Positions 18,571 to 64,000 of a DNA stretch of 64,000 nucleotides are shown here, piece by piece; the first letter of the stretch is position 1; every line of letters starts with the position of its first letter. The stretch spans positions 682,001 to 746,000 of the forward strand of contig NZ_AP023176.1 of the NCBI RefSeq assembly GCF_013426895.1. The letters run 5' to 3'. This DNA is from Paraburkholderia largidicola (lineage in GTDB: Bacteria > Pseudomonadota > Gammaproteobacteria > Burkholderiales > Burkholderiaceae). The notes below the pieces were generated by a model that had not been told where the DNA came from, made no database searches, and saw only the letters and a list, made by a program, of their open reading frames with translations. The translations under genes and the position numbers were made by a program.

Positions 18571-18777
18571 AGACAGATTCGCGGTTAAAACAGCTTGCTC
18601 ATGTTATCGGTTGCGGCGTAGGGTCGACGCGAGTATTCACTACCCGGACTGATGTTTAAAGACGCGAACGGAAAAGACAGGTTTCGCGTTGCTCAACAGT
18701 CTGACCCGTCAGGGTGCGCGTTGCTTGCGCAACGAAGTGGTCACGTACCCTCCCAATACGCAATACGGGAAGCGACA

Positions 18778-18783
18778 TATACT
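18778..18783 (+). promoter_or_regulatory. Possible -10 element of the formate dehydrogenase operon
   Basis: TATACT lies about 38 bases before the alpha-subunit start, without a good -35 at 16-18 bases. An activator or another sigma factor may be involved. Upstream, CGTTGC-TT-GCGCAACG (about 18718-18733) is a short dyad. Confidence 0.3.
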
Positions 18784-18820
18784 CTCGCCACTTGCTCAAG
18801 CATCAGAACGAGAGGCGACC

Positions 18821-21800
18821 ATGTTGCAAATGTCCCGCCGTCAGTTCCTGAAGGTGACGGCGAGCACGCTGGCCGGATCGAGTTTGGCCCTGATGGGCTT
18901 CTCGCCGGAACCCGCGCTCGCCGAAGTCCGACAGTACAAACTGGCTCGTACTACCGAAACGCGCAACACGTGTCCTTATTGCTCAGTCGGCTGCGGCATC
19001 CTGATGTACGGCCTGGGCGACGGCGCGAAGAACGCGACGGCCAGCATCATCCACATTGAAGGCGACCCCGATCACCCGGTCAATCGCGGCACGTTGTGCC
19101 CGAAGGGTGCGAGCCTGATCGACTTCATCCATAGCCCGAGCCGTTTGAAGTATCCCGAGTATCGCGCTGCTGGCTCCGACCAATGGCAACGCATTTCATG
19201 GGACGACGCGCTTGACCGCATCGCGAAGCTGATGAAGGAAGACCGCGACGCCAACTTCGTCGAGAAGACTGAAGATGGCAAAACGGTCAACCGTTGGCTG
19301 ACCACGGGCATGCTGGCGGCATCGGCGGCCAGCAACGAGGTCGGTTATCTGACGCACAAGGCCATCCGCAGCATGGGGATGCTCGCGTTCGACAACCAGG
19401 CGCGTGTCTGACACGGCCCGACGGTGGCAGGTCTTGCCCCGACGTTTGGCCGTGGAGCGATGACGAACCATTGGGTCGACATCAAGAACGCGGACGTGAT
19501 TCTGGTGATGGGCGGCAATGCAGCCGAGGCGCACCCATGCGGTTTCAAATGGGTGACGGAGGCGAAGGCGCACAACAAGGCGAAGCTGATGGTGGTCGAT
19601 CCGCGCTTCACGCGAACGGCGTCGATCGCGGACTTCTATGCGCCGATCCGCACGGGTACCGACATCGCATTTCTTGGCGGCGTGATCAACTATCTGCTGA
19701 CCAACGACAAGATCCAGCACGAGTACGTGAAGAACTACACGGACTTTGCGTTCATCGTCCGCGAAGACTTTTCGTTCAAAGACGGCATCTATTCCGGCTA
19801 CGACGCGAACGCGCACAAGTACCCGGACAAAACGACATGGGACTACGAGCGCGGCGACGACGGTTACGCAAAAGTCGACATGACGCTGCAGCATCCGCGC
19901 TGCGTCTACAACCTGCTCAAGCAGCACTATTCGCGCTACACGCCGGAGATGGTCGAAAAGACCTGCGGCACGCCGAAGGACAAATTCCTGCACGTCTGCG
20001 AGACGCTTGCGACGACCTCGACGCCCGGCCGCGCCGGCACGATCCTTTACGCACTCGGCTGGACGCAACACTCCGTTGGCGCGCAGATGATCCGCACGGG
20101 TGCGATGGTGCAACTGCTGCTGGGCAATATCGGCATTGCAGGCGGGGGGATGAACGCATTGCGCGGCCATTCGAACATTCAGGGTTTGACGGATCTCGGG
20201 CTGCTGTCGAACTCGCTGCCCGGCTATATGACGTTGCCGAACGAGCCTGAGCAGGATTTCGACGGCTACATCAAGAAGCGCGCCGCACAGCCGCTGCGGC
20301 CGAACCAGTTGAGCTATTACAGGAACTACCGCGCGTTTTTCGTCAGCATGATGAAATCGTGGTGGGGCGCCGCTGCGACGGCCGACAACAACTGGGGCTA
20401 TGACTACCTGCCGAAGCTCGACAAGCCATACGACCTGATGCAGATGATCGAGCTGATGAATCAGGGCAAGGTCACCGGCTATATCTGCCAGGGCTTCAAT
20501 CCGCTCGCGGCAGCGCCGAACAAGGCGAAGACGTCGGCGGGCCTCGCAAAGCTGAAGTGGCTCGTCATCATGGACCCGCTCGCGACGGAAACCTCCGAGT
20601 TCTGGAAGAACTACGGCGAATACAACGACGTCGATGCGTCGAAGATCCAGACGGAGGTGTTCCGGCTGCCGACCAACTGCTTCGCCGAAGAGCGCGGTTC
20701 GTTAGTCAGTTCGAGCCGTGTGCTGCAATGGCACTGGCAAGGCGCACAGCCGCCCAATGAGGCACGCAGCGACCTCGAGATCATGTCGGGTCTGTTTCTG
20801 CGCATGCGCAAGGCGTATGTGGAGCAGGGCGGCAAGTATCCCGATCCGATCGTGAAACTCGACTGGCCTTACGCGAACCCTGAAAGCCCGACGCCCGAAG
20901 AGATCGCAATGGAGTACAACGGCCGCGCACTCGCCGACATTACAGACCCGAAGGATGCATCGAAAGTGTTGGTCAAGAAAGGCGATCAACTGGCCGGCTT
21001 CGCGCAACTGAAGGACGACGGCACGACGACGAGCGGCTGCTGGATCTTCTGTGGCGCGTGGACCCAGAACGGGAACCAGATGGGCCGGCGCGACAACAGC
21101 GACCCGACGGGCATCGGCCAGACGCTGAACTGGGCATGGGCGTGGCCTGCGAACCGGCGCGTGCTGTACAACCGCGCGTCGTGCGACCTCAGCGGCAAAC
21201 CGTTCGATCCGAAGCGCAAGCTGATTGCGTGGAACGGCACGAGCTGGAGCGGCCCCGACATTCCCGACTTCAAGATCGACGAGCCGCCTGAGAACGGCAT
21301 GAATCCGTTCATCATGAACGCGGAGGGTGTCGCGCGTTTCTTCGCGCGCGATGCGATGAACGAAGGACCGTTCCCCGAGCACTACGAGCCATTCGAAACG
21401 CCGCTAGGCTACAACACCTTCCATCCCAACAATCCGCTGGCGACCAGCAACCCGGCTGCGCGCGTCTTTCCCGACGATCGTGCGGCGTTCGGCAAGTCGC
21501 CCGAATTTCCGCATACGGGTACCACCTATCGTCTGACCGAGCACTTCCACTTCTGGACCAAGCACGCACGTCTGAACTCGATCGTGCAGCCACAGCAGTT
21601 CGTCGAGATCGGCGAAGACCTCGCGAAAGAAATCGGTGTCGTCGCGGGCGATCGCGTGAAGGTGTCGAGCAAGCGCGGATATATCGTGGCCGTCGCCGTC
21701 GTCACGAAGCGGATCAAGCCATTGATGATCGACGGCAAGAAGGTGCAGACGGTCGGCATTCCGCTGCACTGGGGTTTCAAGGGGCTCACGAAACCTGGCT

Positions 21801-21892
21801 ATATCACGAACACGTTGACGCCTGCCGTGGGCGACGGAAATTCGCAGACGCCGGAATCGAAGTCGTTCCTCGTCAAAATCGAGAAGGCATAG
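18821..21892 (+). CDS. fdnG: Formate dehydrogenase-N alpha subunit, selenocysteine-containing
   Basis: Molybdopterin catalytic subunit that oxidises formate to CO2 in the periplasm and passes electrons to the iron-sulfur beta subunit. It is about 1,023 residues, matching E. coli FdnG/FdoG. Reading starts at [12 protein letters not shown], a twin-arginine signal ending ALA near residue 34. The [4Fe-4S] cysteines are C51, C54, C58 and C93. The frame passes an in-frame TGA at 19409-19411 (residue 197). Flanking residues NQARV and [19 protein letters not shown] match the family around its active-site selenocysteine, so TGA is read as Sec. An annotation ending at the TGA would wrongly split the gene. 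The operon continues with beta and gamma subunits. Confidence 0.95.
19409..19438 (+). promoter_or_regulatory. Selenocysteine codon with bacterial SECIS hairpin
   Basis: The TGA at 19409-19411 is followed by a hairpin whose upper stem is GGCA (19426-19429) and TGCC (19435-19438) closing the loop GGTCT. The GGUCU apical loop and its spacing after UGA match the SelB-binding SECIS of E. coli formate dehydrogenase mRNAs. Weaker pairing extends below the upper stem. The element lies wholly inside coding sequence, as in other bacteria. Confidence 0.88.
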
Positions 21893-33129: not shown

Positions 33130-33909
33130 CTAGTTTCGATACGACGGGTCCCGTCTGTCGAGAAAGCGCAGCATTGCGGGCCATTCCATTTCGCCGTATG
33201 GGCGGCGCGTTTCCGGCTTGTACAGATGCGCGGTCTTGTCGATCACATGCTGCGGCGGCATATGCAGTTCGGTATTGCACGCCATCGCATCGACTTGCGC
33301 GCGGCACGCGTTCTCGAGCCAGTAGATCGCATTGAAGGCTTGCGGAATCGAGGCGCTCGCAACCAGTAGTCCGTGATTGCGCAGGATCATCGCCTCGGCC
33401 TGGCCCAGATCTTCCGCAAGCGTCTTGCGTTCTTCGAGATCGATCGCGACGCCCTGATAGTCGTGATACGCAACGGGACTGAAGCGCATCGCGGTTTGCG
33501 TGAGCGGCAACAACCCGCACGACAACGCCGACACAGCGAGCCCGCCACGGCTGTGCGTGTGGATCACGCAGTGTACGTCGTGCCGTGCGCTGTGCACGGC
33601 GCTATGAATCACATAACCGGCAGCGTTCACACCATACGTGCCCTCGTTCGGATTGAACAGAACGTTGCCGTCGATATCGATCGTGATCAGACTCGACGCC
33701 GTGATCTCCTCGTACATGTAGCCATACGGATTGATCAGCAGCCGCGTGTCGTCGCCAGGGATGCGCGCCGTGATGTGGTTGTACACGAGATCGCTCAATC
33801 CGAAATACGGCATCAGCCGATAACACGCGGCAAGATCGACACGCGTGTTCCATTCGGCTTCGGAAACCATCGACTTCACATTCGACGGCATCTGTTGTTC
33901 CATCAGCAT
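33130..33909 (-). CDS. Class II aldolase/adducin-family protein
   Basis: A 259-residue class II aldolase/adducin-fold enzyme. Zinc-binding histidines are in VIHTHSRGG and a later His in ILRNHGLLV. The N-terminal part (LSDLVYNHITARIPGDDTRLLINPYGYMYEEITASSL) is typical. The fold includes fuculose-phosphate-type aldolases, and also decarboxylases of dihydroxyphthalate-like aromatic acids. Given the LigI-like hydrolase and aromatic-acid-type transporter upstream in the same operon, the decarboxylase or aromatic ring-side-chain option is attractive. This is inference. TGGAGA precedes the ATG. Confidence 0.82.
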   Translation of the reverse strand: MLMEQQMPSNVKSMVSEAEWNTRVDLAACYRLMPYFGLSDLVYNHITARIPGDDTRLLINPYGYMYEEITASSLITIDIDGNVLFNPNEGTYGVNAAGYVIHSAVHSARHDVHCVIHTHSRGGLAVSALSCGLLPLTQTAMRFSPVAYHDYQGVAIDLEERKTLAEDLGQAEAMILRNHGLLVASASIPQAFNAIYWLENACRAQVDAMACNTELHMPPQHVIDKTAHLYKPETRRPYGEMEWPAMLRFLDRRDPSYRN

Positions 33910-33941: not shown

Positions 33942-34811
33942 TCATTGCGGGTCGAACCCGTAGAGCGCGGCAGGGTTGTCCACGAGAATGCGTCGTTGCG
34001 CCTGTGACGAGGGCGCCCATCGCATCAATGCATCGAGCAGTTCGCCGTCGTCGGGCATCGTGCCTTCCAGATTCGGATGCGGCCAGTCCGTGCCCCACAC
34101 GCACCGCTCGGTCGCGACGCGCGCCAGCAGCGTCGCGAGTGCGTCGACATCGTGAAACGGATAGCCTACGCTCGAACAGCGATAACCGCACAGCTTCAAC
34201 CACGCGCGTCCACCATCGAGCAGCGCGCGCAGCGCCGTGACCGCCGGATGCGCGATGCCCCACGCGGCCGGTATCTGTCCCATGTGATCGATGACGACAT
34301 CGGTGGGCAGGCGGCGCAGGATCGGCAGCAGATCGGGCAGATCCTCGCCGTTCGCGTAGATCTGCGTGTGCCAGCCGAATGGCGCGATCCTGTCGGCGAG
34401 CTGGATCAGATGATCGACGGGCGGCCCGCCCGGCGTCACCAGATTGACGCGCACGCCGCGCGCACCCGCTTCGTGCATCTGCCGCAACTGGGTCTCGCCG
34501 ATCTGCGGATCGACCACGACGACGGCACGGCTGCGTTGCGTGCCGAAGTGCGCGACGGCATCCAGCGTGCAGCGATTGTCCGTCGCATAGAAGCTGGGCT
34601 GCACGATCACCACGCGTTGCGTGCCGAGCACATCCTGCACATGCTCATACTGGGAAAGCGTTGCCTCGGGCGGCGTATAGGCGCGTCGCTCGCTCAACGG
34701 AAAACGTTCGAACGGACCCGTGATGTGAATATGGCAATCGCACGCGCCGGGCGGCGCCTTCTGGTCGGGCGTCTTGATGGTCGCGCGTGGAGCCTGGCAG
34801 GTTGCGGACAT
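33942..34811 (-). CDS. Amidohydrolase-family lactonase, LigI-like
   Basis: A 289-residue metal-dependent hydrolase of the 2-pyrone-4,6-dicarboxylate lactonase (LigI) branch of the amidohydrolase superfamily. The HxH motif is CDCHIHITGPFERFP (near residue 29), with DHMGQIP in the middle and the final metal Asp in WGTDWPHPN. I start at the ATG giving MSATCQAPR; the frame stays open into the upstream MFS gene but that part is shadow. LigI opens a lactone ring in protocatechuate or gallate breakdown. The exact lactone here is unproven. It lies between the MFS and class II aldolase genes. Confidence 0.82.
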   Translation of the reverse strand: MSATCQAPRATIKTPDQKAPPGACDCHIHITGPFERFPLSERRAYTPPEATLSQYEHVQDVLGTQRVVIVQPSFYATDNRCTLDAVAHFGTQRSRAVVVVDPQIGETQLRQMHEAGARGVRVNLVTPGGPPVDHLIQLADRIAPFGWHTQIYANGEDLPDLLPILRRLPTDVVIDHMGQIPAAWGIAHPAVTALRALLDGGRAWLKLCGYRCSSVGYPFHDVDALATLLARVATERCVWGTDWPHPNLEGTMPDDGELLDALMRWAPSSQAQRRILVDNPAALYGFDPQ

Positions 34812-34842: not shown

Positions 34843-36129
34843 TCAGGACGGCGTATAGCTGCTCGCAGCGCCGCCCTCGGTCTGCAGCGGCGTGTCGGCG
34901 TCATCGGGCAAGGGTCTGCCGAGCGTTTCGGGTAACAGCAGCACGGCGAGAAGCATGACGGCATAAGCCGCGATACCGAACGCCGCAATCGCATTGCCCA
35001 GTCCCATCACGCTCGTCAGCTTGCCCACCAGCGCCGGGAAGAGTGCGCCGATTCCGCGGCCGAAGTTGTAGCAGAAGCCCTGGCCCGCCGCGCGCATGCG
35101 CGTCGGGAACAACTCGGTCATGTACGGTCCCATTGGCGAGAACATCATGAACGCGCAGAGGCCGAGTGGAAAGCCGAGCACGAGCATCGCGCCGTTGCTG
35201 ATCGGCATCAGCATATAGGCGGCGAGAATCACGGCCGAGCCGATCGCGCTGACCATGAAAGTCCGCTTGCGCCCAATCGAATCAGCCAGATACGCACCGA
35301 GGATAAAGCCGACGAACGCGCCGAGAATCATCACTGTCGTGTAGCTCGCAGTGCCGATGACCGACAGGCCGCGTGCCGTCTTCAGATAGGTCGGCAGCCA
35401 GATCAGGAACGTGTAAGAGCCGCCGATCGACCCCGTTGCGAGCGCCGAGACCCTGAGCGTCGTCGCCAGGTAGTCGAGGCGGAAGATTGACAGCAACTGA
35501 CGCAGCATGCCGCGGTTGCGCCGCTCGCGTCGCCCCTTGGTGAACACTGCTGATTCAGGCACGTGCCGGCGCACCCAGAACACCAGAACCGCGGGCGCGA
35601 GGCCGACCCAGAACAGCGCGCGCCACGCGAGTTGCTCCGGCATGATCGAAAAGAACAGGCCGAACAGCAAGGCGGCCATGCCCCAGCCCACGGCCCAGCC
35701 GCTCTGCACGATGCCGACGGCGCGGCCCCGGTACGCGCCGCGCACCGTCTCGCCGATCAGCACGGCGCCCGCTGCCCATTCGCCGCCAAAGCCGAAGCCC
35801 TGCAGTGCGCGGCAAATGAAGAGCTGCTCGTAGTTCTGCGTGAAGCCGCAGGCGAAGGTGAAGATCGCGTACCAGAGAATCGTCGCCTGCAAGACGGCGA
35901 CGCGACCGAAACGGTCGGCGGCCAGGCCGCTCAACCATCCGCCGACAGCCGACGCCAGCAGCGTCACGGTGCCGAGCACGCCGGCTTCGGCAGCCGTGAT
36001 GTGCCAACCGACCATCAGCGCCGGAATCACGAAGCTGTAGACCTGCACATCGAGCGCGTCGAGTGTCCAGCCAAGAAAGCAGCCGGCCATGGTGCGCCGC
36101 TCAGTCCTGTCGAGCTCCGTCATCCACAT
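34843..36129 (-). CDS. MFS transporter, aromatic acid:H+ symporter-like
   Basis: A 428-residue major facilitator protein with about twelve membrane segments. It has the motif LSGLAADRFGRVAVLQATI after helix 2, [17 protein letters not shown] in helix 4-5, and the mid-loop ADSIGRKRTFMV. The type resembles aromatic-acid or carboxylate proton symporters (AAHS group). The ATG giving MWMTELDRTERR has AAGGAGAC upstream. It opens the leftward operon, followed by the LigI-like hydrolase and aldolase, and is divergent from the IclR gene. A close paralogue is encoded at the right end of the window. Confidence 0.86.
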   Translation of the reverse strand: MWMTELDRTERRTMAGCFLGWTLDALDVQVYSFVIPALMVGWHITAAEAGVLGTVTLLASAVGGWLSGLAADRFGRVAVLQATILWYAIFTFACGFTQNYEQLFICRALQGFGFGGEWAAGAVLIGETVRGAYRGRAVGIVQSGWAVGWGMAALLFGLFFSIMPEQLAWRALFWVGLAPAVLVFWVRRHVPESAVFTKGRRERRNRGMLRQLLSIFRLDYLATTLRVSALATGSIGGSYTFLIWLPTYLKTARGLSVIGTASYTTVMILGAFVGFILGAYLADSIGRKRTFMVSAIGSAVILAAYMLMPISNGAMLVLGFPLGLCAFMMFSPMGPYMTELFPTRMRAAGQGFCYNFGRGIGALFPALVGKLTSVMGLGNAIAAFGIAAYAVMLLAVLLLPETLGRPLPDDADTPLQTEGGAASSYTPS

Positions 36130-36508
36130 GTCTGTCTCCTTGCCGATGCTCGTCGCGCGCCGGCTTTGATCGAAACCTCCGGCATGCAGGAAACCATTCG
36201 TCATCCGAACCGTTTCGGTGCCGTATCGAGGCGAGCCGCCGCGTGGGATGCGTCGACCTTTACTTTTCGCTATTTCGAAAGTAATTTCGAATATATGGAT
36301 TGACTATAGGAGTCGGTTTTTGAGGTGTCAAGAATGGGTCAGCCCGCGGAGAACGTCGTCAAAGGCGCGTCAGGCGCTTGTCCAGCAAGGCTTCGCGGCT
36401 TTCTCAGGCACACACCAGGGCTTTCCATGAGCAGTCAGCGCTGGCGCAACCCGGCGTTTGGCCTATACTGAATTTCGAAATAGCAAATTACTTTTCGAAC
36501 ATACGAAA
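36130..36508. promoter_or_regulatory. MFS/IclR divergent control region with paired operators
   Basis: This 379-base gap contains a perfect palindrome TTCGAAA-GTAA-TTTCGAA at 36274-36291 on the MFS side. Related elements lie on the IclR side: TTTCGAAATAGC (36473-36484) and AAATTACTTTTCGAA (36485-36499), near-reverse complements of sequences around the first palindrome. A TATACT -10 (36464-36469) would start IclR transcription inside the second set. This fits IclR repressing itself and the MFS operon. The central part (about 36300-36450) shows nothing recognisable. Confidence 0.6.
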
Positions 36509-37240
36509 ATGAAACCAACCGATCGCGCACTGGGCATCTTCGAAGCATTCGAGGCGGAAGGGCGTCCGATGACGCTCAGCGAACTCGCCGAGGCGGCCGG
36601 TTTGCCTGTCAGCACGAGTCACGGCATCGTGCGCGTGCTGCTCGAACGCGGCTACCTGTACCTGACGAGCCGAAGAAAGGACCTCTTTCCAACGCGTCGC
36701 CTGTACGACATGGCCGCAAAAATCATCGCCAACGATCCCTACCTCGAACGCATCGAGCCGCAGCTTCAGACGCTGCGCGATGCGACGCAGGAAACCGTGA
36801 TCGTCGGCAAGCGGCAGCACGACGAGATCGTCTATCTGAGCGTGCTCGAAGGGCCGCAGACGATCCGCTACAGCTCGGCGGCGGGCGCGTTGAAACCGCT
36901 GCATTCGACGTCGATCGGCAAGGCGATGCTGAGCCGTGTCGATGCCACCGAACTTCGCCGCTTCCTGGCGCAGGCCGCGCTGACGAGCGTCACCGACAAC
37001 ACCTTGACCTCCGCCGACGACCTGTTCGACGACATCGCGCAATCGCGTGAGAAGGGCTTTTTCGTGACGCGCGGCGAGAGCGTCAGCGACGTGTTCGCGA
37101 TCGCGGTGCCCGTCGATGTGAATCGCGACGTGCTGGGCATTGCCGTCGCCGGGCCGCGCCATCGCATGGAAGATCAGATCGAGCGGATCGGCGCGGTGCT
37201 GCTCGAAGCGAAGCGTTCGATCGAAGCGGGCGGTCATTGA
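36509..37240 (+). CDS. IclR-family regulator
   Basis: A 243-residue IclR regulator. The N-terminal winged HTH is at about residues 5-60 (ALGIFEAFEAEGRPMTLSELAEAAGLPVSTSHGIVRVLLERGYL). The C-terminal effector domain includes the family pattern LHSTSIGKAMLSRV and the GESVSDVFAIAVPV loop. The ATG chosen gives MKPTDRALGIF; upstream codons lie in the operator region. The stop overlaps the start of the crotonase gene (TGATG), so the regulator is transcribed with the B12-mutase operon. The effector is probably a substrate or CoA ester of that pathway. Confidence 0.9.
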   Translation: MKPTDRALGIFEAFEAEGRPMTLSELAEAAGLPVSTSHGIVRVLLERGYLYLTSRRKDLFPTRRLYDMAAKIIANDPYLERIEPQLQTLRDATQETVIVGKRQHDEIVYLSVLEGPQTIRYSSAAGALKPLHSTSIGKAMLSRVDATELRRFLAQAALTSVTDNTLTSADDLFDDIAQSREKGFFVTRGESVSDVFAIAVPVDVNRDVLGIAVAGPRHRMEDQIERIGAVLLEAKRSIEAGGH

Positions 37241-38043
37241 TGAGCGGCGAAGTGTCGAGCGTGCTGACGAGCGTGCGCAGCGGCGTGCTGTACGTGACGA
37301 TCAACCGTCCGGACAAGCGCAACGCGCTGAATCGCGCGACGCTCGATGCCTTGCGCGAAACCTTCGCTGAGACTGCGCATGCCGCAGCGTTACACGCCGT
37401 CGTGCTGTCGGCGGCGGGCGATCGCAGCTTCGCGGCGGGCGGCGATCTGCGCGAATTCGACGCGCTGCGCACGCAAGCCGACGCCGCCGCGCTATTCGAC
37501 CACGCGGCCGCCGCGCTCGATGCGATCCGCGCGACGCCCGTGCCCGTGATCGCCGCATTGAACGGCACGGCGTTGGGCGGCGGCGCGGAACTGGCGATCG
37601 CGTGCGACTACCGCGTCGCGGCGGCGCACGCATGCATCGGCTTCGTGCAGGCGACGCTCGCCATCACCACAGGTTTCAGCGGCGGCAGCGATCTGTTCGC
37701 GCTGCTTGGCGCCGCGCGCGCGATGCGCGTGCTTGCCGATGCGCGTGTGCTCGAAGCAAACGAAGCGCTGACGCTCGGTCTACTCGACGACGTGTGCGCG
37801 CCAGGTCAACCGCTCGACGACTGTGTCGCGCAGTTCGTGAAGCCGTTCGTTGGCCGTCCGCCGCACGTGATTCGCGCGATGAAGCAGATTGCCGCCGCGC
37901 ATCGCAGCGCGTTGTCGCAAGCCACGCGCGCTGCCGAGCGCGCGGCTTTCGTCGCGACCTGGACGGCGCCCGCGCACTGGGAGCAGGCGCAAAAGTTTCT
38001 CGACCGGCAGCGCACGTCGACGGCAAGCGGGTCAACAAGCTAG
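37240..38043 (+). CDS. Crotonase-fold protein, possible acyl-CoA decarboxylase
   Basis: A 267-residue enoyl-CoA hydratase/isomerase-family protein. The CoA and oxyanion motifs are present (NRPDKRNALN; FAAGGDLREF near 65-73; NGTALGGGAELAIACD near 108-123). The first catalytic Glu position is kept (Glu118), but the second Glu of true hydratases is replaced by Gln137 (IGFVQATL). Loss of that Glu is also seen in methylmalonyl-CoA decarboxylase (YgfG/ScpB). With the mutase, CoA-transferase and MeaB genes alongside, I infer decarboxylation of a 2-alkylmalonyl-CoA. A racemase/isomerase role is not excluded. Confidence 0.8.
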   Translation: MSGEVSSVLTSVRSGVLYVTINRPDKRNALNRATLDALRETFAETAHAAALHAVVLSAAGDRSFAAGGDLREFDALRTQADAAALFDHAAAALDAIRATPVPVIAALNGTALGGGAELAIACDYRVAAAHACIGFVQATLAITTGFSGGSDLFALLGAARAMRVLADARVLEANEALTLGLLDDVCAPGQPLDDCVAQFVKPFVGRPPHVIRAMKQIAAAHRSALSQATRAAERAAFVATWTAPAHWEQAQKFLDRQRTSTASGSTS

Positions 38044-38088
38044 CCCGAGTCGCGCCGTTCAGCCACCGCAAGAAAGGAGCGTCACAGC

Positions 38089-39710
<1,622 letters not shown>

Positions 39711-39714
<4 letters not shown>

Positions 39715-40175
39715 ACAGCACGAGCAGCAAGTCCGCCGATCCGTCCGTCGCTGCCGGCGCAACAGTCCGAAGCCCGCATGCGCCGCTCAAGGGCAAGCGC
39801 ATTCTCGTCGCCAAGCCGGGACTCGACGGGCACGACATCGGCGCGAAAGTGATCGCGCTCGCGTTGCGCGATGCGGGCGCGAGCGTGATCTACACCGGCT
39901 TGCGCAAGAGCCCGGAGTACATCGCGCGGATTGCCGTCGATGAAGACGTCGATGCCGTCGGTCTGTCCATTCTCTCGGGCAGTCACAACGAACTCGTCGC
40001 GCGCACGGTCGAACTGCTCGCGGATCAGGGCGCGGGCGCGATTCCCGTGTTCGTCGGCGGCACGATTCCCGCCGACGATCGCGCGGCTTTCCTGAAGGCG
40101 GGCATACGCGGCGTATTCACCAGCGACATGCCGCTCGACGACGTGATCGACGCCGTCGCGAAGGTGCTGGGATGA
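39711..40175 (+). CDS. B12-dependent acyl-CoA mutase, small (cobalamin-binding) subunit
   Basis: A 154-residue cobalamin-binding subunit. It has the base-off motif DxHxxG as LDGHDIG (Asp39, His41, Gly44), then LSILSGSH and FVGGTIP, the standard Rossmann-like B12 fold of mutase C-terminal domains. It is separate here, as in isobutyryl- and hydroxyisobutyryl-CoA mutases, whereas E. coli ScpA carries the domain fused. A 33-residue Ser/Ala-rich leader precedes the fold. It overlaps the large-subunit stop (ATGA), implying coupled translation and a fixed ratio. Confidence 0.92.
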
Positions 40176-41350
40176 ACGCGCCCGGTTTCGCCGCGCCCGA
40201 CGACACGCCGCATGGCCGCGCGTCGGGCGGACCGCTCGCGGGGATACGCGTGATCGAAATCGGCCACATGCTGATGGGCCCGTACTGCGGAATGCTGCTC
40301 GCCGATCTCGGCGCCGAGGTGATCAAGATCGAGCCTCCCGAAGGCGACATCGGGCGTTCGATCAGTCCGCACACGATCGGCCCGCACAACGCGTATTTCG
40401 CCAGCCTGAACCGCAACAAGCAGAGCGTCGTGCTGGATCTCGCAAGCGAAAGCGGCAAGCACGCGCTCGCAGCGATGGTGCGCGATGCGCACGCGCTCGT
40501 GACGAACCTGCGGCCGTCCGCGATCCGCAAGCTCGGCCTCACGTACGACCGGCTGCGCGAGCACAACGAGCGGATCGTCTGCGTCGCGCTGACGGGCTTC
40601 GGTCTCGACAGTCCGAATGCCGAATTGCCCGCCTACGACTACGTGATCCAGGCGCTCACGGGCATCATGCATCTGACGGGCGATCCCGATGGTCCGCCGA
40701 CCAAGGCCGGCTTCTCGACCGTCGACAACTCGACGGGCATCATGGGCGCCGTCGGCCTGCTGGCGAAGATCGTCGAAGGGCGTGGCGGCCAGGTCGACAT
40801 TGCGATGTTCGACGTGATGGTCTCGCAGCTCAACTACGTCGCAGGCGCCGCGCTCAACGGCGGCGAGCAGCCTTCGCGGCATGCGCTGTCGTCGCATCCC
40901 TATATCGTGCCGGCGCAACTGTTCCGCACGCGCGACGACTGGCTGATGCTGTTCATCACGCACGACAACTTCTGGCGCATCTTCGCGCAACGCGTCGGGC
41001 ATCCCGAGTGGATCACGCAGACGGGCTTCGCGACGATGGCGGAACGGCGCGCGCATCGCGACGCGGTAATCGGTGCGCTGTCCGAGATGTTCGCGGGCGA
41101 GACCACGCAGCATTGGCTCGATGCGCTGGCTTCGTCGGGCGTCGTGGTGTCGCGGCTCGCGTCGATTGCCGAGGCGCTCGAGAGCGCGCAGGCGCAGGCG
41201 CGCGGGCTCGTCGTGGAGATCGAATCGGAAGCGGGGCCGCTGAAGGTGGTGGGCAACCCGATTCATATCGACGGCGTTCACACGCGGTATGGCTTGCCGC
41301 CGCTGCTGGGCGAACACACGTCGGCGTGGTGCGGCGAGGTGTCGACATGA
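40172..41350 (+). CDS. CaiB/BaiF (type III) CoA-transferase
   Basis: A 392-residue class III CoA-transferase. It opens GPLAGIRVIEIGHMLMGPYCGMLLADLGAEVIKIE. The catalytic Asp (equivalent to Asp169 of formyl-CoA transferase) is probably Asp185 in AGFSTVDNSTGIMG. Such enzymes move CoA between carboxylates through an aspartyl-CoA thioester. In this operon it should activate the imported dicarboxylate, using the CoA of a pathway product or of succinyl-CoA. Four-base overlaps join it to the genes on both sides. The specific acid is not readable. Confidence 0.9.
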   Translation: MNAPGFAAPDDTPHGRASGGPLAGIRVIEIGHMLMGPYCGMLLADLGAEVIKIEPPEGDIGRSISPHTIGPHNAYFASLNRNKQSVVLDLASESGKHALAAMVRDAHALVTNLRPSAIRKLGLTYDRLREHNERIVCVALTGFGLDSPNAELPAYDYVIQALTGIMHLTGDPDGPPTKAGFSTVDNSTGIMGAVGLLAKIVEGRGGQVDIAMFDVMVSQLNYVAGAALNGGEQPSRHALSSHPYIVPAQLFRTRDDWLMLFITHDNFWRIFAQRVGHPEWITQTGFATMAERRAHRDAVIGALSEMFAGETTQHWLDALASSGVVVSRLASIAEALESAQAQARGLVVEIESEAGPLKVVGNPIHIDGVHTRYGLPPLLGEHTSAWCGEVST

Positions 41351-42255
41351 GCGGCGCAGCGGATGCCACTGCCGGCGTCGCGCGCCGTCAGTTGGCGCGC
41401 GATCTGTCGAAGCTCGCGCGCGCGAGCGTCGCCGAGTCGTTGCATCTGTTGCGGGACAACTGCGTCAGGCCCGCGCGCCGCATCGGCTTCACGGGGCCGC
41501 CGGGCGCGGGCAAGAGCACATTGATCGGCCGCCTGGCGAAGGCGCGCGCGGCGCGCGGCGAATCCATCGCAATCATCGCCATCGACCCGAGCAGTCCCAC
41601 GACCTCGGGCGCGCTGCTCGGCGACCGCGTGAGGATGGATGCCGTGCTCGCCGACACGGACGTCTTCATTCGTTCGCTGCCGAGCGGCTGGTCCGCCGAC
41701 GGTCTCTCGGACAATCTGGCCGACGTGCTCGCTGCCGTCGAAGCCGATGGTTTCGCGGAAATCCTGCTCGAAACGGTCGGGGTGGGGCAAGTGGAAAACG
41801 GCGCGCGCGCACTCGTCGACACGCTGGTGCTGACGATGGGCCCGCACTCGGGCGACCAGATCCAGGCGATGAAAGCAGGCGTGCTGGAGACGGCCGACAT
41901 CGTCGTCGTCAACAAATGCGATTTGCCGGGCGCCGAGCGCGTCGCGCAGGACATCGGCAACGTGCTCGAACGCAATCGCGCGAACGGGCGGCGCGTGGCG
42001 CCCGTCGTGTTGACGCGGGCGAACGATGAAGCATCGATTGCGCAACTCTCCGCCGAGATCGACGCGCACACGGCATGGCGTGCCGCGCATGTGGACGCAG
42101 CGCACGCCGACGAGTTGCGCAAGCGCTTTCACGTGCGCAGTCTGCTGACGCGCCGCGTGGCCGAACTCATCGATACCTTGCCTGCCGACGCGCGCACGGC
42201 ATCGGTTGCCGAGCTGTATGCGTGCATCGCGAAGCAGATAGGCGGTTCGGGATGA
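41347..42255 (+). CDS. meaB: MeaB/ArgK-type GTPase, mutase chaperone
   Basis: A 302-residue G3E-family P-loop GTPase. Walker A is GPPGAGKST (50-58), followed by IAIDPSSPTTSGALLGDRVRM, the ETVGVGQ switch segment and NKCD as guanine-binding motif. MeaB proteins gate cobalamin loading and protect or reactivate B12-dependent acyl-CoA mutases. Its location two genes after the mutase small subunit, overlapping the CoA-transferase stop (ATGA), supports service to this mutase. The longer open frame begins far upstream but that part lies inside the CoA-transferase gene. Confidence 0.93.
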   Translation: MSGAADATAGVARRQLARDLSKLARASVAESLHLLRDNCVRPARRIGFTGPPGAGKSTLIGRLAKARAARGESIAIIAIDPSSPTTSGALLGDRVRMDAVLADTDVFIRSLPSGWSADGLSDNLADVLAAVEADGFAEILLETVGVGQVENGARALVDTLVLTMGPHSGDQIQAMKAGVLETADIVVVNKCDLPGAERVAQDIGNVLERNRANGRRVAPVVLTRANDEASIAQLSAEIDAHTAWRAAHVDAAHADELRKRFHVRSLLTRRVAELIDTLPADARTASVAELYACIAKQIGGSG

Positions 42256-42314
42256 CGCCAGCGTAGCGACACATCATCCCGCACAACGACAAACCAGGAT
42301 GGAAGGAGACGCGG

Positions 42315-43334
42315 ATGAAACAACTTCGTTTTTTGATGACGACGCTGGTAGCGGCTGTCGCGTGCACATTCGCCGCGTTGCCCGCCGCGCAGGCCGACGA
42401 CACGATCACGCTGAAGATGGCGCATCAATGGCCTGATGATCCGAACGACTACGTCGTGCAGACAGGCAAGAAGTTTGCGCAGGAAGTGATGCAGCGCTCG
42501 GGTGGCAAGATCCATATCGACATCTTTCCCGCCGAGTCGCTGGTGAAGGCGCTCAACATGCATACGGCGCTACGCAGCGGCAGTGTCGATCTGGCGATCT
42601 ACCCGTACATCTACGCAGCGGGTGCGGTGTCGCAGATGAACCTGATCCTGTTGCCCGGCCTCTGGAAGACACCCGACGACGTCTATCGCTTCCGTACCTC
42701 GGCGCCGTGGCGAGAACTCGAAACGAAGCTCGAAGCGTACGGCTTCAAGACCTTGTGCTGGATACAGATATCGGGCGGCATGGCATCGAAGGGAAAACCC
42801 GTCAACATACCCGCCGATCTCGAGAAAACCAAGGTACGCGGCGCGGGCAAGATGATGGAAGCGGCGTTGCAGAGCGCGGGCGCGAGCACGGTATCGATGG
42901 CGTCGTCGGAAACCTATAACGCGATGCAACTCGGTCTGCTCGACGGGTTGTGGACCTCGTCGGGCACCTTCGGCTCGTACCGTCTCTACGAAGTGGCCAA
43001 GTACTACGACTCGCCCGAGCAGTACAGCATCTACTACACGATCGAGCCGATCGCGATCAGCATGAAGACCTGGAACAAGCTGACGCCGGCGCAACAGAAG
43101 ATCATGACGGACGTCGGGCAAAGCCTCGAACAAAGTGCGTTCGAAGGCGCGAAGGCCGACGACCGCCGCGTCGCGCAACTCTTTGCCAGCCATGGCGTGC
43201 AAATCCACAAGATGACGCTCGACGAATGGACGCAGTGGCAGAAGCTGTTCCAGCAGGTCAGCTTCACGAAGTTCCGCAACGAAGTGCCAGACGGCGCGCG
43301 GCTGCTCGATCAGAGCGTCGCGCTCTACAAGTAG
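42315..43334 (+). CDS. TRAP transporter solute-binding protein (DctP)
   Basis: A 339-residue periplasmic binding protein of the DctP type. The signal peptide ends PAAQA (about residue 27), followed by DDTITLKMAHQWPDDPND. The conserved ligand region KVRGAGKMMEAALQSAGAS contains the carboxylate-clamping Arg. It supplies a carboxylate to the DctQM membrane unit. GGAAGGAGAC precedes the ATG. It follows the MeaB gene after 59 bases on the same strand, so the imported acid is most likely the substrate of the CoA-transferase/mutase enzymes. Confidence 0.92.
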   Translation: MKQLRFLMTTLVAAVACTFAALPAAQADDTITLKMAHQWPDDPNDYVVQTGKKFAQEVMQRSGGKIHIDIFPAESLVKALNMHTALRSGSVDLAIYPYIYAAGAVSQMNLILLPGLWKTPDDVYRFRTSAPWRELETKLEAYGFKTLCWIQISGGMASKGKPVNIPADLEKTKVRGAGKMMEAALQSAGASTVSMASSETYNAMQLGLLDGLWTSSGTFGSYRLYEVAKYYDSPEQYSIYYTIEPIAISMKTWNKLTPAQQKIMTDVGQSLEQSAFEGAKADDRRVAQLFASHGVQIHKMTLDEWTQWQKLFQQVSFTKFRNEVPDGARLLDQSVALYK

Positions 43335-43343
43335 GAGAACGGC

Positions 43344-43892
43344 ATGCGCGGGCCGCTCGATCGTGTGGTGCATCTGCTCGATGTCTTTTTCAAGGGCGTC
43401 GCGCTGTCGGCGGGCGTCGCGGCGATCGCGACAGTCGCGGTGATTTCGTACGGCGTGCTGGCCCGCGAGGCATTGCATCTGTCAGATGTGTGGGTGACGG
43501 AGGTCACGACCTATCTGATGGCGTACATGACCTTCGTCGGCACGGCGGCGCTCGCGTGGCAGTCGCGTCACCTGAAGATCGACGTGCTTGGTCATCATCT
43601 GGGCGAAGGCGGCAGGCGCGTGCTCGCGGCGTTCTCGACGCTCGTGATGTCGGTTGTTGCCGTCGTGATCGCGGTGCTGGCCGTGCAGTTCTGGTGGGAC
43701 GCGTACACGAGCGGCGAGCGTTCGTGGGGCATGTTCTCGTTGCCGCTGTGGATTCCGTATCTGTGTCTCGTCGCCGGCGCGCTGCTGCTGTCGCTCGTGC
43801 AACTGGTGCGGCTCGCGACCATCGTCTTCGCGCGCCGCGAACTCGCGCACGATCTGTCCGTCGACGAACTCGCGCTCGGGAGAGACAAGTGA
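43344..43892 (+). CDS. TRAP transporter small membrane subunit (DctQ)
   Basis: A 182-residue protein with four membrane helices. The family pattern VTEVTTYLMAYMTFVGTAALAWQSRHLKIDVLG is in the middle. The small subunit stabilises the large permease. It starts nine bases after the DctP stop with AGGAG upstream, and its stop overlaps the DctM start (GTGA). Confidence 0.9.
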   Translation: MRGPLDRVVHLLDVFFKGVALSAGVAAIATVAVISYGVLAREALHLSDVWVTEVTTYLMAYMTFVGTAALAWQSRHLKIDVLGHHLGEGGRRVLAAFSTLVMSVVAVVIAVLAVQFWWDAYTSGERSWGMFSLPLWIPYLCLVAGALLLSLVQLVRLATIVFARRELAHDLSVDELALGRDK

Positions 43893-45184
43893 CCCAGCTA
43901 TTCATCGGCGCCGGGATGTTCGGCGGCCTGCTCGCGGTATTGTCGTTCGGCGTGCCGATCGCGTTCGCGCTGCTGTTCGTCGCGCTGGTCTCGCTGTTCG
44001 TCACGGGCGGCGGCTGGGACGCGCTGAACCTGATTCCGAGCACGTACTGGGGCTCGGTCGCGACGTTCACGCTGACCTCCGTGCCGATGTTCATGTTCAT
44101 GGGCGCGATCGTGTCGGCGTCGGGCATGGGCGCGCGACTGTACAGCGCGCTCGCGACGATCCTCGATGGCGTGCCGGGCGGTCTCGCCGTCGCGACCACG
44201 CTGGCGTGCGGCGTGATGGCGGCCGTATCGGGATCGAGCGTGGCGACGGCGGCGGCGATCGGCGGGTTCGCGGTGTCGGAGATGCGCCGGCATGGTCTGC
44301 CAGCCGGGCAGGCGTGCGGCTCGGTCGCGGCGGGCGGGACGCTGGGCATTCTGCTGCCGCCGAGCATTCCTCTCATCGTCTATAGCGTGATTGCCGAGCA
44401 GTCGATCGGCCGCCTGTTCGTCGCGACGCTCGTGCCGGGCGCGATCATGGCGACAGCCTTTGCGCTCTATCAGATGGCGCTCGCGCTGCGGCGCAAATCG
44501 CGCGGCGAAGCGCGCAGGCGTCCGCTCGCGCCGCTTCGCGCGCGCATCGTCGCGTTGAAGGATATCGGCCCGTTCGCGCTGCTGATCCTGATCATCCTCG
44601 GTTCGCTGTACCGCGGACTCGCGACGCCGCAGGAGGCGGCATCGCTGGGCATCATCGCGAGCCTGATTCTCGCGGGCGTCGTGTATCGCGAACTGAGCTG
44701 GCGCAAGTTTCACGAGATTCTCGTGAGCGCGGCACAGAGCAGCGTGATGATACTCGCCGTGATTTCATCCGCGATCGTGTTCGGCTATGTGATGACGACG
44801 AGCCAGGTCGCGTCGTCGCTCACGCAGGCCGTGGCGGGCGCGCACGTCGCGCCGTGGGTGCTGTTCGTCAGCATCAATCTGTTGCTGATTTTTCTCGGCT
44901 GCTTCATGGAGACCATCGCGATCATCGTCGTGACGATGCCCGTGCTCGTGCCCGTGGTGCAGGCGTATCACTGGAACCTGATCTGGTTCGGCGTCGTCGT
45001 GGTCATCAATATGGAAATGGCGCTGATCCATCCCCCCGTCGGGCTCAATCTGTTCGTCGTGCAAAGCGTGGCGCCGGACGTGCCGCTACGACGTATCGTG
45101 CTCGGCACGCTGCCGTATGTGTTCATCATGGCCGGCGTACTGGCGCTGATCGGCGTCTTTCCACGACTGACAAGCCTGCTGTAA
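43889..45184 (+). CDS. TRAP transporter large permease (DctM)
   Basis: A 431-residue sodium-coupled permease with about twelve membrane helices. Typical stretches are SVPMFMFMGAIVSASGMGARLY, AVSGSSVATAAAIGGFAVSEMRRHG, GGTLGILLPPSIPLIVYSVIAEQSIGRLF and VNMEMALIHPPVGLNLFVVQ-type sequence near the end. It starts at GTG overlapping the DctQ stop. The open frame extends about 310 codons upstream, but that stretch is antisense-like shadow of DctP/DctQ. It is the last gene of the IclR-to-TRAP operon. Confidence 0.92.
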   Translation: MTQLFIGAGMFGGLLAVLSFGVPIAFALLFVALVSLFVTGGGWDALNLIPSTYWGSVATFTLTSVPMFMFMGAIVSASGMGARLYSALATILDGVPGGLAVATTLACGVMAAVSGSSVATAAAIGGFAVSEMRRHGLPAGQACGSVAAGGTLGILLPPSIPLIVYSVIAEQSIGRLFVATLVPGAIMATAFALYQMALALRRKSRGEARRRPLAPLRARIVALKDIGPFALLILIILGSLYRGLATPQEAASLGIIASLILAGVVYRELSWRKFHEILVSAAQSSVMILAVISSAIVFGYVMTTSQVASSLTQAVAGAHVAPWVLFVSINLLLIFLGCFMETIAIIVVTMPVLVPVVQAYHWNLIWFGVVVVINMEMALIHPPVGLNLFVVQSVAPDVPLRRIVLGTLPYVFIMAGVLALIGVFPRLTSLL

Positions 45185-59246: not shown

Positions 59247-62879
<3,633 letters not shown>

Positions 62880-62949: not shown

Positions 62950-64000
62950 TCAGGCGGATTCGAGTTCGCGTCCGCGTGTTTCGGGCAGCGTGAGGGCGGC
63001 GATGATCAGCACGCCATAGGCGGCGACGGCAAAAATGCCGATGCTCGTGCCAAGGCCGAACTCTTTCGACAGCGAGCCGATCAACACCGGAAACAGCGCG
63101 CCGATCGCGCGGCCGACGTTGTAGCAGAAGCCCTGTCCCGAACCGCGCACGCGGGTAGGGAAGAGTTCGGTGAGAAACGCGCCCATGCCCGAGAAGATGC
63201 CGGAGGCGAAGAAGCCAAGCGGAAAGCCGAGCCAGAGCATCGACGTGTTCGTCAGCGGCAGCGACGTGTAGGCGAACGCGATGGCCATCGAGCCGACGGC
63301 GAACAGAATGAAATTGGGTTTGCGGCCAATGCGGTCCGTCAGCCACGCGCTCGACAGGTAGCCGATATACGAGCCAACGATGATCATCGCCAGATAGCCG
63401 CCCGTGCCCATCACCGTGAGATGGCGTTCCGTCTTGAGGAAGGTGGGCAGCCACGTGGTGATCGCGTAGTAGCCGCCTTGCGCGCCCGTCGTGAGCAGCG
63501 CGGCGCGCAGTGTCGTGGACAGCAGCTTCGGCGCGAAGATCTCGGTGAAGCGCGGTGTGTCGTGGGTGTCGCGGCGTATTGCCTTCGCCTGCTCGAATAC
63601 TTCGGGTTCCTTGACATACCGGCGAATCACGAGCACGAGAACAGCGGGCACGAGGCCGATCAGGAACAGCGCACGCCACGCGATTTCCGGCGCCATTGCC
63701 GAAAACAGCACGGCGTAGAGCAGGGCGGCCATGCCCCAGCCAAGCGCCCAGCCGGACTGCACGAGGCCTACGGCCTTGCCGCGGTCGCGTGCGCGAATCA
63801 CCTCGCCGATCAGCACGGCGCCCGCAGTCCATTCGCCGCCGAAGCCGAACCCCATCAGTGCGCGCGCGGCGAGCAACTGGCCGTAGTTCTGCGCGAGTCC
63901 GCACAGACCGGTGAAGACGGCGAACCACAACACGGTAAGTTGCAGCGTGCGCACGCGGCCGATGCGGTCCGACAATATGCCCGCGATCCAGCCGCCCAAG
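62950..64000 (-). CDS. MFS transporter, partial (N-terminus beyond window)
   Basis: C-terminal 350 residues of a major facilitator protein. The frame is open to the last base, so the true start lies outside. It carries [21 protein letters not shown] (motif A), [17 protein letters not shown] and the mid-loop [14 protein letters not shown]. It is clearly paralogous to the transporter at 34843-36129, and of the same aromatic/carboxylate proton-symporter type. It precedes the fused hydantoinase gene and probably imports its substrate. Confidence 0.85.

Follow-up and report, generated by a model that had tools for sequence, protein, structure and literature searches.

Nine adjacent genes of Paraburkholderia largidicola encode what is, on balance, probably a catabolic unit for substituted succinates, HOOC-CH2-CH(R)-COOH, in which the substituent R would be larger than methyl. 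They lie on the window analysed here, a stretch of 64,000 nucleotides (C3:682001-746000) of a 9.47 Mb genome in five contigs; C3 is 2.34 Mb long. The products are an IclR-family regulator, a crotonase-fold protein, the large and small subunits of a split B12-dependent acyl-coenzyme A (CoA) mutase (mutL and mutS), a family III CoA-transferase, a MeaB-type GTPase, and the proteins DctP, DctQ, and DctM of a tripartite ATP-independent periplasmic (TRAP) importer. Five genes, for the crotonase, the two mutase subunits, the CoA-transferase, and MeaB, form a conserved unit that is scattered over alpha-, beta-, and gammaproteobacteria, and the mutase family has a clade of its own and a rewritten active site. 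Judged from the sequences, an aryl or longer alkyl group is favoured as R; methylsuccinate is a possible substrate, and succinate and glutarate are disfavoured.

In E. coli, the Scp system (Sbm-ArgK-YgfG-YgfH) unites the functions of a mutase, a MeaB-type GTPase, a crotonase-fold decarboxylase, and a CoA-transferase. The preliminary description of this DNA had proposed a cycle of the same logic, and the gene set supports it, provided that the genes have their predicted functions; the description had also assigned the CoA-transferase to a family other than that of Scp, which the CoA_transf_3 match (1.3e-111) bears out. Only tentatively would we go further and regard the family as an uncharacterised class of B12 mutase on an undescribed respiratory route for bulky aryl- and alkylsuccinates via substituted malonyl-CoA, in which a crotonase replaces the oxidative decarboxylase, the substrates are free compounds of soil and sea that may be released as lactones, and the genes have spread by horizontal transfer across the proteobacteria. 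Substrates are known for only a few B12-dependent acyl-CoA mutases. A new specificity could readily be sought in a clade of this size, whose gene surroundings recur and whose active site is rewritten. The cassette could explain the consumption of free substituted succinates by bacteria that do not make them, and its mutase could offer a carbon-skeleton rearrangement of bulky substrates for synthesis.

Active site and phylogeny of the mutase

The window mutase has the hallmarks of the adenosylcobalamin-dependent acyl-CoA mutase superfamily, namely PF01642, a B12-binding domain with the DxHxxG motif, and H244 (residues are given in methylmalonyl-CoA mutase (MCM) numbering, obtained by adding one to the chain index and confirmed at landmark residues). 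The active-site signature was drawn from 50 distinct family mutases, excluding sequences below 69% identity, those of 480 residues or fewer, and exact duplicates. Y89, Q197, R207, H244, and E370 are kept in all 50. H244 is the catalytic residue in these mutases, and Y89 and R207 bind the free carboxylate in MCM. The corresponding pair is Ile and Gln in 2-hydroxyisobutyryl-CoA mutase (HCM) and Phe and Gln in the genome's own IcmF-like protein. Because Y89 and R207 are retained throughout the family, a dicarboxylyl-CoA substrate is expected, rather than hydroxyisobutyryl- or isobutyryl-CoA. A mutase for a monocarboxylic acid, of the 2-hydroxyisobutyryl-, isobutyryl-, or pivalyl-CoA type, would accord with the split subunits, which HCM shares, and with HCM (PDB 4r3u) as the highest-scoring solved relative. 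A 2-hydroxyisobutyryl- or isobutyryl-CoA mutase would need Q207 with Ile or Phe at 89, however, and HCM also keeps Y243, H328, and Q330; we regard such a substrate as very improbable.

All 50 family mutases differ from nine outsiders by M78G, F117L, L175Y, S241A, Y243A, and E247D, and further along the chain by S322A, H328G, Q330V, T331C, and H364F. The outsiders agree with one another at these positions, one deviating outsider being allowed (and used at 78 and 322); they are few and not independent, since the nine include two nearly identical HCMs and two nearly identical Streptomyces rows. Asn366 is replaced by Cys in 37 and by Ala in 13 of the 50. The same motifs were found in three inspected family members from the phylum search and four from the family search. 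The catalytic histidine and the carboxylate-binding pair are thus retained, and in the rewritten segment (328-366, which we take to face the substrate and deoxyadenosine) the replacements are mostly smaller or more hydrophobic residues. An active site altered in this way speaks for a bulkier substituent than the one handled by methylmalonyl or methylsuccinyl mutases.

A maximum-likelihood tree of 35 sequences placed the window family (eight rows), the iaaG-like mutases (introduced below), MCM, HCM, and ethylmalonyl-CoA mutase (ECM; two rows, one annotated 'protein meaA' and one unannotated) each on one branch, with support of 100/99 or 100/100. The window family, MCM, and the iaaG-like mutases each reached 100/100, and the branching order among the clades was left open. 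Several identities of the window mutase were rejected. It is not MCM or ScpA, from which it is separated as a clade and by changes of Y243, H328, Q330, and N366 in all 50 family members. A housekeeping MCM role was likewise dismissed, a canonical MCM being present elsewhere in the genome; this enzyme and the IcmF-like protein are the only other PF01642 proteins (n = 2), and there is one PF01923 adenosyltransferase. ECM (MeaA) forms a separate clade, its subunits are fused rather than split, and it has VQLP at 363-366 where the window mutase has VFTC. By sequence, membership in IaaGH was rejected, the iaaG-like mutases forming a separate clade.

Position 243 also varies in other mutases. It is glycine in a mutase of Rhodococcus fascians linked to a nonribosomal peptide synthetase (L088) and alanine in a Sphingobium mutase without H244; in the orphan mutases L120, L123, L088, and L089 it is Ser, Gly, Gly, and Ala, respectively, and L089 has no H244. 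On a Streptomyces canus plasmid (L053), metH, metF, and ahcY precede a split mutase with the usual active-site motifs.

Distribution of the cassette

The preliminary description treated the nine genes as a self-contained unit and suggested a search for conserved synteny. Paraburkholderia sp. 22B1P has a 100% identical mutase, a P. largidicola plasmid carries one at 99.8% identity, and the P. caribensis MBA4 enzyme is 98.3% identical. Among 144 genomes of the genus, ten have the mutase, the present one counted, and all ten keep the order from iclR to MeaB, which is more than chance would give; intact TRAP genes follow in nine. In the tenth (L002/L077 9792-10220), DctP is only a partial match on the opposite strand and DctQ only a fragment, through decay or an assembly fault. 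Beyond the genus, the mutase occurs in 2 of 150 order genomes and 4 of 398 phylum genomes (own included in each; one of the four, L147, is the same contig as L034 and had already been counted), and, with identities of 73-78%, in 4 of 74 genomes from a single family within the order. A scan of contigs with a mutase pattern, which favours close relatives, gave 43 loci: five from Paraburkholderia at 90-95% identity, one from a metagenome-assembled genome (MAG) at 83%, and the others at 70-78%. By record title these are alpha-, beta-, and gammaproteobacterial isolates and MAGs, with one Nitrospira and one Klebsiella. In a protein search, 7997 of 8000 scored candidates had E values of at most 1e-60, other mutases included, and identity was 73-94% among the 120 matches listed.

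Neighbouring genes were counted over 54 loci with a mutase identity of at least 69%, each gene being scored only where the contig reaches; L083 (same contig as L011) was left out, and the contig pairs L023/L035 and L041/L042, each one MAG by title, were left in. On the same strand as the mutase, mutS was found in 50/50 loci, CaiB in 46/49, the crotonase in 45/51, and MeaB in 39/45. The five-gene core thus recurs in distant proteobacteria, and that part of the earlier claim stands; the regulator and importer are variable, with an IclR homologue somewhere in 39 of the 54 loci and a DctP match after the cassette in 10 of 42. The TRAP importer, at first taken as dedicated to the pathway, is therefore one of several importer types attached to it. 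In place of DctPQM there is a tripartite tricarboxylate binding protein in Diaphorobacter, a TAXI-type TRAP system in Sulfitobacter, an NMT1-like binding protein with a 680-residue DctM-type permease, read as TAXI-type, in L148, and LivFG-like ATP-binding cassette (ABC) ATPases, named by eye, in L146. The rare and patchy spread, together with a Marinobacter plasmid copy flanked by insertion sequence elements, suggests an accessory catabolic unit that has moved between lineages.

Other genes recur beside the cassette. In alphaproteobacterial MAG loci, a 2-oxoglutarate oxygenase (c6) and a luciferase-like enzyme (c5) precede it (11 loci each), and it is followed by an SMP-30-type protein (c23, five loci), a hydroxyacid dehydrogenase (c8, ten loci), and a sulfopyruvate-decarboxylase-like pair (c11, nine loci; c7, 11 loci); these cluster names were taken from L025 only, and c5 counts one other locus too. 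An adenosyltransferase gene adjoins the cassette in Marinobacter and L148, and thioesterase-superfamily genes lie near it in L043, L146, and L148. The surroundings in L146 also hold an AMP-binding ligase, a P450, a thiolase-like protein, and an aldehyde dehydrogenase. On the Diaphorobacter plasmid (L048 1-9440), a second, different mutase with a MeaB, an AMP-binding protein, and a branched-chain-type ABC importer lie shortly before the cassette.

Crotonase, CoA-transferase, MeaB, and importer

In an alignment of 46 distinct crotonase relatives with ScpB and two hydratases, the equivalent of E144 (rat hydratase numbering) is kept in 46/46, and the E164 position is taken by Gln in 44 and by His in two. 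An alignment of 27 crotonases agrees, with E118 invariant and Q138 nearly so. E. coli ScpB, a single sequence recognised in the unannotated record L091, has Pro at the E164 equivalent. The second hydratase glutamate is thus absent, as in ScpB, which fits a decarboxylase but does not show one.

The CoA-transferase has the features of family III, namely PF02515 and the aspartate of a PAYDY motif, which we take to be the catalytic one and which is conserved over 54 sequences. Among NCBIfam models it comes nearest to those for succinate-glutarate, oxalate, and mesaconate CoA-transferases, staying far short of each cut-off. The best PDB matches are formyl-CoA, YfdE, and succinate-hydroxymethylglutarate transferases and a CaiB/BaiF-family entry; a benzylsuccinate transferase ranks lower.

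PF03308 has two matches in the genome, one inside the IcmF-like protein and the other the cassette MeaB, which alone is a free-standing protein. No MeaB homologue was matched within 16 kb around the genome's own canonical MCM (L084), and the cassette MeaB might serve both the window mutase and this MCM. DctP, DctQ, and DctM are adjacent, as in TRAP systems of the DctPQM type. The nearest solved relative of DctP is PDB 4mco (4.7e-52), whose ligand is probably malonate.

Proposed pathway

From what is seen directly, namely the gene families, their order and conservation, the active-site signature, the clade, and the operator-like repeats described below, we infer the reactions and their direction, the CoA donor, the IclR ligand, and the identity of R. 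The TRAP system, or another importer in other hosts, would import the diacid, and the family III CoA-transferase would load CoA onto it, with succinyl-CoA as the most likely donor. With its own MeaB to maintain it in an active state, the split mutase would shift the CO-SCoA group to give the substituted malonyl-CoA HOOC-CH(COSCoA)-CH2-R. The crotonase-fold protein would decarboxylate this product to R-CH2-CH2-CO-SCoA, a 3-substituted propionyl-CoA that could enter beta-oxidation. Driven by decarboxylation, the reversible earlier steps could proceed. IclR would sense the substrate or an intermediate and would also control a divergent operon for a major facilitator superfamily (MFS) transporter, a lactonase, and an aldolase, through which a related precursor, perhaps a lactone, may be provided. 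Glutarate, one of the substrates suggested at first, is at odds with a mutase that forms a malonyl-CoA and a decarboxylase that acts next: a mutase working on glutaryl-CoA would be expected to make methylsuccinyl-CoA, and this could not serve a malonyl-CoA decarboxylase as a direct substrate.

Several findings weigh against a large substituent or against this reaction sequence. ECM, whose substituent is only methyl or ethyl, alters part of the same active-site segment (H328G is shared), and F117L also occurs in the orphan mutases L120 and L123, so that the argument from substituent size is not strict. The residues taken to touch the substituent were assigned by homology and from MCM structures; the available text of PMC6759758, PMC10481361, and PMC6717113 yielded no list of pocket residues. 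The crotonase is not adjacent to the mutase in 6/51 loci, the CoA-transferase in 3/49, and MeaB in 6/45, and L146 has no CoA-transferase match and a ligase nearby. Since a DctP match follows the cassette in so few loci, the DctP ligand need not be the mutase substrate. Finally, PDB searches with the crotonase, a profile search included, rank hydratases first and not a decarboxylase.

The behaviour of ECM is also in keeping with a small-substituent cycle, one that makes butyryl-CoA from methylsuccinate or even propionyl-CoA from succinate, as Scp does in E. coli, the active-site changes then being due to drift or stereochemistry. Methylsuccinate is a simple diacid for which the cassette and an importer would need no further enzymes, and some relatives, L039 and L148 among them, show little beyond the cassette, IclR, and an importer in the stretch examined. 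ECM nevertheless keeps Y243, F117, and Q330, all three of which are lost in all 50 family mutases, and the canonical MCM elsewhere in the genome also speaks against such a cycle, which we consider unlikely. Still less likely is that the crotonase is a hydrolase, an isomerase, or another acyl-CoA enzyme and that the mutase product is used otherwise. It is favoured by the hydratase ranking, by the loci where the two genes are apart, and by the absence of any decarboxylase model among the 25 of 72 NCBIfam models listed, none of whose cut-offs the crotonase reached. It sits poorly with the missing second glutamate in 46/46 relatives, with the 45/51 loci in which the crotonase adjoins the mutase, as ScpB sits in the ScpA operon, and with CO2 release, which would be the obvious pull on a rearrangement to a malonyl-CoA. 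Decarboxylation of a bulky substituted malonyl-CoA remains our preferred reading.

Comparison with known systems

Every step proposed here has a precedent, and the closest systems are iaaL-GH-F and E. coli Scp. Like Scp (whose gene order was seen in L091), the window has mutase, MeaB, crotonase, and CoA-transferase in one operon. It differs in that ScpA is an MCM by tree and motifs, whereas the window mutase is of another clade with unfused subunits, and in that an importer and a regulator are attached to a CoA-transferase gene of a different family.

Anaerobic indoleacetate degradation in Aromatoleum aromaticum (IaaL/IaaGH/IaaF) uses a family III CoA-transferase and a B12 mutase on an arylsuccinate (PMC8360864, PMC11659651). 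In the available text, IaaL is described as a phenylsuccinyl-CoA transferase that works with succinate too, IaaGH as the mutase to (2-aminobenzyl)malonyl-CoA, and IaaF as a decarboxylating dehydrogenase (PMC8360864). The window cassette would likewise combine a family III CoA-transferase with a B12 mutase forming a substituted malonyl-CoA, as IaaGH turns an arylsuccinyl-CoA into a benzylmalonyl-CoA, and CO2 would be removed next, but it has a crotonase in place of the oxidative IaaF.

Ten mutases from one family of the order were labelled iaaG-like here from an adjoining iaaF-like gene and a hydantoinase-type gene in L137, independently of record annotation. They carry IAGGG (one IAAGG) at 328-332 and MALC at 363-366 and keep Y89, R207, Y243, and H244. 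The four loci examined all show an acyl-CoA dehydrogenase gene, a B12-subunit gene, and a large-subunit gene, in that order. The N-terminus of the L134 dehydrogenase, MDFDLTDD, is the sequence encoded by the published iaaF primer (PMC8360864); a loose pattern search with this primer gave only matches with 2-3 mismatches. L136 has a CoA_transf_3 gene, and weak CaiB matches occur in three of the four loci. The segment 328-366 is remodelled in both families, but differently: the window mutase is 43-45% identical to the iaaG-like enzymes and in a separate clade, and they keep Y243 and F117. In contrast to the window cassette with its MeaB, importer, and IclR genes, none of the four iaaG-like loci gave a MeaB match. 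Our reading is that the two families may represent parallel adaptations to bulky substrates.

Two further systems resemble the cassette as they are described. In the available text on anaerobic alkane degraders, (1-methylalkyl)succinate undergoes CoA activation, rearrangement, and decarboxylation (PMC4561516), the same three steps; there, however, the substrate is made in the cell from an alkane, whereas import is proposed here. The ActD and MatB mutases of actinonin and matlystatin biosynthesis are of the split type and, according to the text available, are proposed for a long-chain alkylmalonyl-/alkylsuccinyl-CoA pair (PMC5719088); they are biosynthetic and work opposite to the direction proposed for the window mutase. 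The preliminary description knew of no pathway with this gene set. No description of the exact set was found in the open-licence literature, outside which most subscription papers lie, but IaaL/IaaGH/IaaF and the alkylsuccinate route are precedents for its chemistry.

Gene organization and regulation

The nine open reading frames (ORFs) were found as first described, all on the + strand from 36509 to 45184, and each scores above the Pfam cut-off for its named family (Table 1). Overlaps of a few bases occur at five of the eight junctions, their length depending on the start codon chosen: one or four bases for IclR/crotonase, four (start annotated in L047) or 34 (longest ORF) for mutL/mutS, four for mutS/CaiB, four (ATG at 41347) or 25 (start annotated in L047) for CaiB/MeaB, and four for DctQ/DctM. 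Gaps of 45, 59, and 9 bases separate crotonase/mutL, MeaB/DctP, and DctP/DctQ. The mutS start was set by homology to L047; the longest ORF begins at 39681. The mutase subunits pass subfamily-domain NCBIfam models only, and the IclR protein, the CoA-transferase, and MeaB reached no NCBIfam equivalog cut-off; for IclR, with no named equivalog, the best model was BhcR at 130 bits against a cut-off of 350. No cobalamin riboswitch was found in the window at the gathering score.

Table 1 Cassette genes, divergent genes, and probable operators in the window
Feature	Position	Strand	Evidence or sequence
IclR-family regulator	36509..37240	+	Pfam IclR_C 6.6e-33, HTH_IclR 3.7e-13
Crotonase-fold protein, proposed substituted-malonyl-CoA decarboxylase	37237..38043	+	ECH_1 4.9e-40
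mutL, large (substrate) subunit of B12-dependent acyl-CoA mutase	38089..39714	+	MM_CoA_mutase PF01642 2.8e-193
mutS, small B12-binding subunit	39711..40175	+	B12-binding 2.1e-23; DGHDIG (DxHxxG) motif
Family III (CaiB/Frc) CoA-transferase	40172..41350	+	CoA_transf_3 (PF02515) 1.3e-111
MeaB-type GTPase chaperone	41347..42255	+	MeaB PF03308 2.3e-60
TRAP solute-binding protein DctP	42315..43334	+	PF03480 2.8e-43
TRAP small permease DctQ	43344..43892	+	PF04290 5.1e-22
TRAP large permease DctM	43889..45184	+	PF06808 3.1e-94
MFS carboxylate transporter, divergent	34843..36129	-	MFS_1 5.6e-53; ORF opens at 36204, start from L047 homology
Amidohydrolase, divergent	33942..34811	-	PF04909 1.5e-51; 4d8l 2.1e-57
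Class II aldolase/adducin-family protein, divergent	33130..33909	-	PF00596 6.5e-46; 3ocr 3.1e-68
Probable IclR operator, MFS side	36266..36280		TTCGCTATTTCGAAA
Probable IclR operator directly upstream of iclR	36473..36508		TTTCGAAATAGCAAATTACTTTTCGAACATACGAAA

The intergenic region 36205-36520 contains a 15-nt inverted-repeat pair (36266-36280 / 36473-36487, 93% complementary). With at most one mismatch, TTTCGAAATAGC occurs three times in the window versus 0.18 expected by chance, and its two exact copies are this pair. TTCGAA sites are present within 350 nt upstream of iclR in nine of the ten genus genomes and on the MFS side in eight, the own genome being represented by the near-identical L047. 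L081, which is without the MFS operon, has no MFS-side sites, and L082, which has the operon, has no sites on either side. In distant loci, TTTCA-N-TGAA palindromes were seen by eye near the same place. Because inverted-repeat and TTCGAA sites precede both iclR and the MFS operon, the divergent MFS, lactonase-like, and aldolase genes probably belong to the same IclR regulon; a lack of shared regulation had been named at the outset as a finding that would speak against the scheme.

The MFS gene is present in nine of the ten genus genomes, and its best NCBIfam model is an aromatic acid/H+ symporter (212 bits, under the cut-off of 418.55). The nearest solved relative of the amidohydrolase is 2-pyrone-4,6-dicarboxylate hydrolase, a lactonase. 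The pathway might therefore begin with the divergent lactonase, aldolase, and MFS genes, the substrate and TRAP ligand being a lactone or a hydroxylated diacid. The sites common to both operons, and missing from the MFS side in the sole genus genome without the operon, are in keeping with this idea, as is the SMP-30-type gene after MeaB in five alphaproteobacterial loci (c23; Pfam on L025 only). L082 has the divergent operon yet no TTCGAA site, however, and the stretches examined outside Paraburkholderia showed nothing of the operon but an aldolase homologue in two loci. The divergent operon would thus not be needed for the cassette, and we give a start from these genes little weight compared with direct import of a substituted succinate.

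Other features of the window

A SECIS_3 element (19406-19464) lies at the break between the in-frame ORFs 18689-19411 and 19424-21892, which by eye resemble one formate dehydrogenase, probably an ordinary selenocysteine enzyme. Further along the window, a 1210-residue ORF (59247-62879), resembling by eye a fused hydantoinase/oxoprolinase, is adjoined by an MFS-like ORF at 62950-63999.

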